A stretch of 64,000 nt of DNA from Dyella jiangningensis (GTDB taxonomy: Bacteria > Pseudomonadota > Gammaproteobacteria > Xanthomonadales > Rhodanobacteraceae). Location of the stretch: the NCBI GenBank assembly GCA_000632805.1, contig CP007444.1, forward strand, positions 124,001 through 188,000, given 5' to 3'. Made by a program: the position numbers and the translations under genes. Under the pieces are notes generated by a model that saw nothing but the letters and a program-made list of their open reading frames with translations, made no database searches and was not told the origin of the DNA. Each line of letters opens with the position of its first letter. Position 1 is the stretch's first letter. Shown one piece after another: positions 6,046-43,059 of this stretch.

Positions 6046-6089
6046 AAAGCCCCTCTCCCATTGGGAGAGGGGTGGGGGAGAGGGTGCGG
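6046..6089. repeat. Left inverted copy of dispersed palindromic repeat flanking DUF559
   Basis: A 10-bp stem CCCCTCTCCC (6050-6059) / GGGAGAGGGG (6063-6072) with a 3-base loop, followed by a purine-rich tail GTGGGGGAGAGGGTGCGG. It begins 12 bases after the hppD stop and ends two bases before the DUF559 start. The same unit in reverse orientation closes the gene at 6445-6487, and related copies occur at 38935-39055 and 42876-42915. Confidence 0.85.
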
Positions 6090-6091
6090 AA

Positions 6092-6505
6092 ATGCGGAAA
6101 GGCAGGAAGCCACCGTTGCCAACAAAGACACGCGAGCGCGCTCGCGACTTGAGGCAGACAAGTACGGATGCCGAGCTTCGCCTATGGCAGCACCTGCGTG
6201 CTGGCCGGCTCAAGGGCTGGAAGTTCCGTCGGCAGCACCCTTTGCCTCCGTATGTGGCGGATTTCTACTGCGAGGCTGCCAAGCTGGTGATCGAACTCGA
6301 CGGTTCGCAGCATGGCGGAAGCGCAGACGCAGTCCGTAGCCGTTATCTTGAATCACTCGGCCTCACGGTTCTGCGTTACTGGGACAATGAGGTCATGCAG
6401 CAGACGCAGGCGGTGCTCGAAGCCATCCTTGGCGTCGTCGAATGCCGAACCCTCACCCCAACCCCTCTCCCGCCGGGAGAGGGGCTTCAAGGCGAAGAGC
6501 AATGA
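6092..6505 (+). CDS. DUF559 endonuclease-fold protein in a repeat-flanked cassette
   Basis: 137-residue protein with the DUF559 core: [21 protein letters not shown], then [19 protein letters not shown], then [12 protein letters not shown] and VLRYWDNEV. This family belongs to the restriction-endonuclease-like (Vsr-related) fold; the D in VADF and the E-x-D in IELDG fit the metal-binding core (family knowledge). Cellular role unknown. The start ATG abuts the left repeat and lacks a clear ribosome site. The last 20 residues, with PTPLPPGEG, are translated from the right repeat itself. The stop overlaps the hmgA start as ATGA, so hmgA translation may be coupled. It interrupts hppD-hmgA-fahA, which indicates insertion. 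Confidence 0.8.
6445..6487. repeat. Right inverted copy of the DUF559-flanking repeat
   Basis: Tail first, then stem CCCCTCTCCC (6462-6471), 3-base loop and GGGAGAGGGG (6475-6484): the mirror image of the left copy. Read on the minus strand it matches the left unit through stem, tail and the final TCGG, with few changes. It overlaps the DUF559 3' end and stops 15 bases before hmgA. Confidence 0.85.
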
Positions 6506-38934: not shown

Positions 38935-39055
38935 AAAGCCCCTCTCCCCGCGGGAGAGGGGTGGGGGTGAGGGTGCGGTCTTGCCGCCACCTTGGCGATT
39001 GCGCTCCGCCCGTACCCTCATCCACCTGCGGCACCTTCTCCCGGAGGGAGAAGGG
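38935..39055. repeat. Inverted pair of the DUF559-type repeat without a gene
   Basis: Unit one (38935-38978): stem CCCCTCTCCC (38939-38948)/GGGAGAGGGG (38952-38961) plus tail GTGAGGGTGCGG, nearly identical to the left DUF559 repeat. Unit two (39012-39055), reversed and diverged: tail ACCCTCA then CCTTCTCCC (39034-39042)/GGGAGAAGG (39046-39054). Only 33 bases lie between them. The architecture equals the DUF559 cassette minus the gene. Confidence 0.75.
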
Positions 39056-42875: not shown

Positions 42876-42915
42876 AACCCTCTCCCCTTCGGGGAGAGGG
42901 TAGGGTGAGGGGCGG
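42876..42915. repeat. Diverged copy of the DUF559-type palindromic repeat
   Basis: ACCCTCTCCCC, three-base loop, GGGGAGAGGGT (42877-42901), then tail AGGGTGAGGGGCGGG, nine bases after the tkt stop. Same layout as the units at 6046 and 38935. Confidence 0.7.
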
Positions 42916-42976: not shown

Positions 42977-43059
42977 TGTGGGAGCGCACCCTGTGCGCGA
43001 CAAGCCTACCGAGTGCAGACACCGAGGCTCTGCGGTCGCGCACAGGGTGCGCTCCCACA
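42977..43059. repeat. REPIN-like inverted pair of 25-bp REP units
   Basis: The arm at 42977-43001 (TGTGGGAGCGCACC...) is the exact reverse complement of 43035-43059; 33 bases lie between. The unit resembles GTGGGAG-type REP sequences of Pseudomonas and xanthomonads, which move with RAYT transposases (family knowledge). No RAYT gene is in the window. Confidence 0.85.

Follow-up and report, generated by a model that had tools for sequence, protein, structure and literature searches.

In a stretch of Dyella jiangningensis DNA, a DUF559 gene lies enclosed by two inverted repeat units, and the question that this arrangement raises is whether gene and repeats belong together and, if they do, in what capacity. 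We analysed the 64,000-nucleotide stretch that contains the locus (the window), together with its source genome and larger samples of genomes. The neighbouring genes are taken here to be hppD and hmgA, as named in the initial annotation.

A DUF559 gene framed by inverted repeat units

Direct reading of positions 6050-6484 bore out the description of a DUF559 gene placed between two inverted hairpin-plus-tail units (Table 1). In each unit a C/T arm, a 3-nt loop and an A/G arm are followed by a G-rich tail that faces the gene, and AAAG or GAAG precedes the window units (seen in an unsystematic check of few units for a GTAG/CGTC foot tag). The ORF continues across the right-hand unit, so that the C-terminus of the protein is encoded by the repeat.

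Table 1. Coordinates of the DUF559 gene and of the repeat units in the window
Feature	Position	Strand	Parts	Basis
Left repeat unit	6050..6084	+	hairpin CCCCTCTCCC-ATT-GGGAGAGGGG, 6050-6072; G-rich tail 6074-6084, toward gene	read from sequence; pattern match vs shuffles
DUF559 ORF, 137 aa	6092..6505	+		ORF list; Pfam; structure model
Right repeat unit, inverted	6450..6484	-	tail 6450-6459, hairpin 6462-6484; overlaps 3' end of DUF559 ORF	read from sequence; pattern match
Gene-less pair, left unit	38939..38973	+	hairpin 38939-38961, tail 38963-38973	
Gene-less pair, right unit, other subtype (GAGAAGG arm)	39015..39054	-	tail 39015-39023, hairpin 39034-39054	by eye
Single unit	42878..42912	+	hairpin 42878-42900, tail 42903-42912	

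The initial annotation had also proposed an empty sister of this arrangement at 38935-39055 and a single diverged unit at 42876-42915. There is indeed an inverted gene-less pair at the former place, but it is not an exact empty copy: its left unit has the type seen at the DUF559 locus and its right unit, CCTTCTCCC-GGA-GGGAGAAGG with tail CCCTCATCC, is of another subtype, which makes 38939-39054 a mixed inverted pair. The single unit is likewise present, but rather than being diverged it has a complete hairpin and tail, hardly changed. Directly after it, at 42980-43056, stands another inverted repeat of different sequence, whose 22-bp arms each occur once in the window and which we take to be, possibly, a RAYT-type REP.

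The pattern CTCTCCCN{1,14}GGGAGAG has four matches in the 64-kb window, against a mean of 0.01 and a largest value of 1 in 100 dinucleotide shuffles, and CCCTCTCCCN{2,12}GGGAGAGGG yields 77 copies in the source genome, against 0 for the reversed control. Away from the DUF559 gene, 50 gene-less pairs and 81 singles are dispersed; orientation is readable in 31 of these pairs, and 26 are inverted (15 inward, 11 outward). Four PF04480 matches were found in the source genome, two of which are one locus present twice (C1:130125, in the window, and C1:5182129), with no difference in the 3315 bp that were compared. The assembly is a single contig with a contamination estimate of 8.39%, so that this may be an assembly duplication. 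The third match, adjoined by a gene that we presume to be lysA, has repeats beside it, and the fourth is weak (E 5.8e-10), with no repeat in the flanks inspected.

PF04480 covers residues 12-116 of the window ORF (about 6125-6439; Pfam, E 1.1e-37). The structure model (mean pLDDT 84.9) matches NGO0050 (3hrl, E 5e-10) and the catalytic domain of the homing endonuclease I-Bth0305I (3r3p, E 2e-4), the latter being found by hmmsearch as well (E 0.0014); AbaSI, PvuRts1I and Vsr (1vsr, E 0.09) match less well. These matches agree with the earlier reading of the enclosed protein as Vsr-like and not a Y1 transposase. All 53 sequences compared share E28, D57, E68, D70 and H74, and we infer that these acidic and histidine residues are catalytic. 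On the profile and the model, DUF559 is a probable DNA-cutting enzyme with a Vsr/homing-endonuclease-like fold. YcjD has been used as a known PD-(D/E)XK member whose profile found Vsr (Kosinski et al. 2005, PMC1189080), and Caulobacter VsrA, which holds a DUF559 domain, triggers SOS induction in a methyltransferase mutant, short-patch repair being its proposed role (PMC12907096); in the portions of text available, both papers fit a DNA-cutting enzyme and neither concerns action on repeats.

Repeats and DUF559 genes in other genomes

Since framing at one locus could be particular to it, what matters is how DUF559 domains are placed elsewhere. Of 140 DUF559 domains, 89 have a hairpin within 300 bp on each side and 127 on at least one side. 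The other ORFs of these loci, without the direct neighbours of DUF559, served as the control; of 1441, 6 have hairpins on both sides and 108 on at least one. Some of the 13 domains that have no hairpin by this strict rule score in the inverted-repeat test described below. Per kb, 3.52 hairpins occur next to DUF559, 41 times as many as in the rest of these loci (0.085). The outcome that would have spoken against the initial annotation, namely DUF559 homologues usually lacking flanking repeats, thus did not occur. Chance enclosure of small genes by the repeats is ruled out, since only 6 of the 1441 other ORFs, and 3 of the 426 of at most 600 bp, have hairpins on both sides.

A de novo inverted-repeat score, which compares the two 300-bp flanks of DUF559, reached at least 16 at 37 of 60 loci; of 3600 positions drawn at random from these loci, 23 did so. 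The 60 loci had been chosen by hand from among the best-scoring places listed for a 398-genome phylum sample, roughly one for each genus. For named genome-contig loci, 77 of 80 being usable, the corresponding figures are 66 of 77 and 18 of 3080. Positive loci include Chloroflexi, Nitrospira, Binatia and Desulfarculus records; a Dadabacteria record and one deltaproteobacterial record scored below 16. In an enlarged set of 239 DUF559 domains, to which 60 hand-picked regions of multi-copy genomes and 32 own-family loci had been added, 155 have hairpins on both sides and 213 on either side. One locus (L315; G029:C3:275315-278118) has three DUF559 domain matches in 2.8 kb, none with a typed hairpin adjoining.

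Repeat number tracks the presence of DUF559 in both samples, as the initial annotation had suggested checking, and repeats are not equally abundant where the gene is missing. Among 168 genomes of the family that are at least 90% complete, the median is 55 repeats with DUF559 (n=103) and 1 without (n=65), and in within-genus pairs of this sample the genome with DUF559 has more repeats in 204 cases and the genome without it in 31. In the phylum sample of 398 genomes the medians are 17 (n=110) and 0 (n=288); at least 10 repeats occur in 71 of the 110 genomes with DUF559 and in 12 of the 288 without a good match, and zero repeats of the searched pattern in 8 of 110 and 199 of 288, respectively. 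Presence was called at E <= 1e-10, a cut-off chosen after the lists had been inspected, and p values here and below ignore phylogeny except in the within-genus and within-genome contrasts, where pairs are non-independent. Fifteen of 79 family genomes without DUF559 have at least 10 repeats. The 12 genomes of the phylum sample with at least 10 repeats and no PF04480 match at E <= 1e-10 are G250, G394, G494, G214, G245, G285, G336, G347, G356, G456, G479 and G563. They may have lost the gene recently, be incompletely assembled or have a different partner.

Y1_Tnp is present in 128 of 197 family genomes and has no effect on repeat number there: in a regression that includes genus as a factor and omits genus g11, its coefficient is 0.12 (se 0.19) compared with 1.58 (se 0.20) for DUF559, and with g11 kept the repeat medians are 14.5 with and 29.5 without Y1_Tnp (p 0.13). 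On copy number, then, a RAYT as the driver of these repeats is ruled out.

The type of repeat also follows the DUF559 lineage. When the arms were sorted by script into four types, left and right type agreed for 127 of 148 copies typed on both sides. One genome can hold DUF559 copies with different repeat types, and within the 18 genomes that have several typed copies and more than one type, left and right agreed in 34 of 42 cases, compared with 20.5 expected (0 of 5000 shuffles as high). The closest DUF559 in another genome shared the type in 139 of 183 cases (81.7 expected). After removal of shared-flank pairs the count was 128 of 183 (81.6 expected; largest of 2000 shuffles, 111), and in the 13 mixed-type genomes, again with shared-flank pairs removed, 28 of 36 were of the same type (18.1 expected; 10 of 5000 shuffles).

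Dispersed type-2 repeats follow the same rule, with exceptions. In 41 typed family genomes, in which not every DUF559 copy was included, the median number of dispersed type-2 repeats is 34 in the 19 with a GGAGG-type DUF559 and 1 in the 22 without (p 1e-5). Of 118 genomes with DUF559, 38 have at least 5 type-2 repeats, as does 1 of 79 without the gene. G039, in which only GGAGG-type copies were typed, has 57 type-2 and 5 type-1 repeats, and G034 has 24 and 1. The exceptions are G066 and G163, with 54 and 36 type-2 repeats and no typed GGAGG copy, and G014, which has a GGAGG copy and zero type-2 repeats; for type 1 the converse test gives a weak result (median 73, n=33, vs 30.5, n=8; p 0.054). 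Since type matching persists without shared gene context and in dispersed type-2 copies, linkage alone is weakened as its explanation. Taken as sequence comparisons, these results make it very probable that DUF559 is coupled with this repeat class.

Triplex-type repeats, ycjD and change at single loci

In units beside DUF559 the tail is a mirror image of the purine arm, with A or T allowed at A, and such mirror pairing is the rule for purine-motif triplexes. Tails fit their own arm better than foreign arms (0.855 vs 0.729, p 2e-28), and the outward flanks, as a control, fit both alike (0.527 own, 0.526 foreign). The third strand thus co-varies with the purine arm as arms differ, which at the sequence level is the pairing feature of an intrastrand triplex, and the units could fold back as an intrastrand purine-motif triplex. 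The tail of the nearest unit points toward DUF559 in 152 cases and away in 18, 44 being without a clear tail and 2 tied. Comparison of 5' and 3' units revealed no clear consistent difference in linker.

The initial annotation wrote of an undescribed repeat-propagating system, but repeats of the same layout have been published as TM_ECO. According to the available part of Holder et al. (2015, PMC4666352), this motif consists of a C-rich stem, a loop, a G-rich stem, a short loop and a second G-rich stem (strict pattern CCCTCNCCCN3-6GGGNGAGGGN3GGGNGAGGG), is present in 3610 copies in 262 proteobacterial genomes and in 23 copies in MG1655, five inverted pairs among them, and forms a triplex in vitro, a stable triplex in vivo being without support by DMS footprint; no mobility gene for the motifs was found in that study. 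The window units share with TM_ECO, earlier called PIT elements, the stem-loop-stem-tail order and the dispersed, intergenic, often paired and inverted occurrence. They differ in missing the strict pattern, in that the second loop, as we read it, has 2 or 4 nt rather than 3; other genomes studied here use other arm types, and TM_ECO was described without a protein partner.

A DUF559 gene is nevertheless next to one of the described motifs. In E. coli K-12 the DUF559 gene is ycjD (1,351,407-1,351,760), and unit no. 9 of Holder et al. (1,351,204-1,351,239) sits between fabI and ycjD; the other side of the gene is without a unit. This adjacency goes unremarked in the available text of PMC4666352, where the terms DUF, ycjD, fabI, sapF and Vsr have no match. 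The E. coli units inspected, those beside ycjD included, satisfy the strict TM_ECO pattern. A close match to ycjD is present in 3365 of 5426 E. coli genomes; in three strains the match ends after fabI, and a TetR regulator and RND efflux genes adjoin. The eef operon and ycjD are described as alternatives at the fabI-side site (PMC12817139, available in part). Among 60 E. coli records spread down a ranking, which represent few independent lineages, motif places have a median, taken by hand, of 19 (range 12-27) in the 37 with ycjD, the ycjD place being counted once, and of 4 (range 1-18) in the 23 without it. Five E. coli type A units (K-12, L336-L339, L141) are each preceded by GTC in an unsystematic foot-tag check, and three K-12 unit pairs have a similar inner spacer; the E. 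coli element may therefore exceed the published 37-nt motif.

Single loci record how units and genes change. Between hrpB and mrcB, K-12 has an inverted pair (85 bp), two other E. coli strains retain one hairpin, with the left or the right loop, respectively, and three strains, including IHE3034, have no unit and are 102 bp shorter, the boundary not being clean. Of 14 other species of the same family, presumably Enterobacteriaceae, that have both flanking genes, 12 have no unit and two have one (by reading). These allele differences indicate that units come and go, and gain would be the simplest direction here. In L345, L347, L348 and L352 the hrpB-mrcB gap contains what we take to be a classic enterobacterial REP sequence; with REP-like sequence there in species that have no triplex motif at this place, one intergenic site would host different repeat families.

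Across 20 congeners, the lysA-side locus carries 16 full-length DUF559 copies with repeats and 4 shortened ones. Median dN/dS among the 16, two of which contain a stop and from which the 4 decayed copies were omitted, is 0.13 (119 of 120 pairs usable), which at the level of sequence shows purifying selection on the gene at this locus. At hppD-hmgA, the gene with both units is present in 6 of 20 congeners. A shrunken remnant is left in one and part of a single hairpin in another, and the other 12 carry a different stretch there. The initial annotation had held that a gene ancestral at this locus would count against it, and this applies in part: with the gene in six congeners and remnants in two more, it was probably inherited within a subclade and does not look freshly inserted. 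No clean insertion was seen among the 20 congeners, and none with a target duplication at hppD-hmgA or at E. coli hrpB-mrcB.

DUF559 as a probable partner of the repeats, and the alternatives

We consider it likely that DUF559 acts on the repeats as their nuclease and, with almost the same confidence, that it is a trans-acting nuclease partner of REP-like repeats, a counterpart of REPIN/RAYT built from unrelated parts; that it actively propagates the repeats is an even call. The gene-bearing version would be an inverted pair that encloses the gene, with gene-less pairs and singles as its relatives. The DUF559 protein would recognise its own type of unit, perhaps when this is folded at replication forks, and nick or cut it, whereupon repair or copying of the cut DNA would seed new units; once the gene is lost, the repeats would decay. 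Cutting and copying of units by DUF559 are what we infer from the coupling, and the same correlations could mean maintenance rather than propagation.

Maintenance would make DUF559 a Vsr-like repair nuclease for hairpin or triplex barriers or mismatches, with repeats that arise otherwise and are tolerated. It suits the Vsr-like fold and, as far as the available text goes, the SOS response and proposed short-patch repair of VsrA (PMC12907096), and it accounts for the copy-number coupling; however, it does not readily explain the place of the gene between repeats, nor why each DUF559 copy has one repeat type on both sides and along the tree, and we think it unlikely. A still less probable reading has another mover, a RAYT or replication slippage, with DUF559 as a passenger caught between units. 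Deletion from hairpin to hairpin does occur without the gene, as in the single-hairpin alleles of E. coli hrpB-mrcB, but Y1_Tnp presence does not predict repeat number, other ORFs are seldom caught on both sides, and repeat types match.

That DUF559 is a defence or modification-dependent nuclease, its repeats being regulatory or self-protecting ends, is highly improbable: the weaker structure matches to AbaSI and PvuRts1I, which are 5hmC-specific, point that way, but the best PADLOC match of the protein is DpdF, at E 0.0031 over 32 residues, and the repeats are dispersed far from the gene. Plasmid carriage, too, is rare, with homologues in 44 of 72,556 plasmid records. Hardly credible at all is the view of the hairpins as ordinary terminators or mRNA-stability elements that stand beside DUF559 incidentally; the window hairpins are close to gene ends, yet against this stand the density beside DUF559, the conserved inward third strand and, in an earlier study cited in PMC4666352 (available in part), no promoter or terminator activity of the motifs.

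Among known systems, the parallel to REPIN/RAYT drawn in the initial annotation extends to layout, to the matching of cognates and to the coupling of copy numbers, but not to the class of enzyme. Framing by inverted palindromic repeats, dispersed gene-less inverted pairs and singles, a repeat type that follows the enzyme lineage, with exceptions, and a mostly chromosomal location are shared. Unlike a RAYT, which is a Y1 (HuH) tyrosine transposase, the DUF559 enzyme is a Vsr-like endonuclease, and its repeats have a triplex-type third strand and a number to which Y1_Tnp genes show no link. I-Bth0305I, an EDxHD homing endonuclease and thus a selfish-DNA nuclease, has the closest named enzyme fold after 3hrl; it is intron-borne and site-specific, whereas DUF559 is flanked by dispersed palindromes, with no intron. 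Vsr and VsrA have a related fold, VsrA through its DUF559 domain; short-patch repair is a role proposed for VsrA. MITEs and their autonomous transposons likewise combine one gene-bearing copy with many gene-less derivatives that have the same ends; DUF559 differs in having no transposase fold, and no target-site duplication was seen. The literature covered (titles and the starts of abstracts, with most subscription journals outside it) contained no paper joining DUF559 with dispersed repeats. We rate the pairing as new, the triplex-type repeats themselves being known (PMC4666352), and as new in kind because the enzyme that defines REPIN/RAYT is absent, yet the system would work like REPIN/RAYT.

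The DUF559-repeat pairing offers a protein partner for a common bacterial repeat class of puzzling origin, and a testable function for DUF559, the family to which YcjD of E. coli K-12 belongs. The pairing may also have to do with the differences in triplex-motif number between E. coli strains. Chances are about equal, for and against, that this is a second independent bacterial repeat-propagating system, widespread in Pseudomonadota and present in some other phyla, in which DUF559/YcjD recognises its own type of unit, cuts it and drives its copying to new intergenic sites without a transposase, the repeats, including those of E. coli, being selfish or domesticated DNA. If true, partnerships of repeat and nuclease like REPIN/RAYT would have arisen repeatedly, in this instance from an unrelated enzyme and perhaps with a triple-stranded signal.
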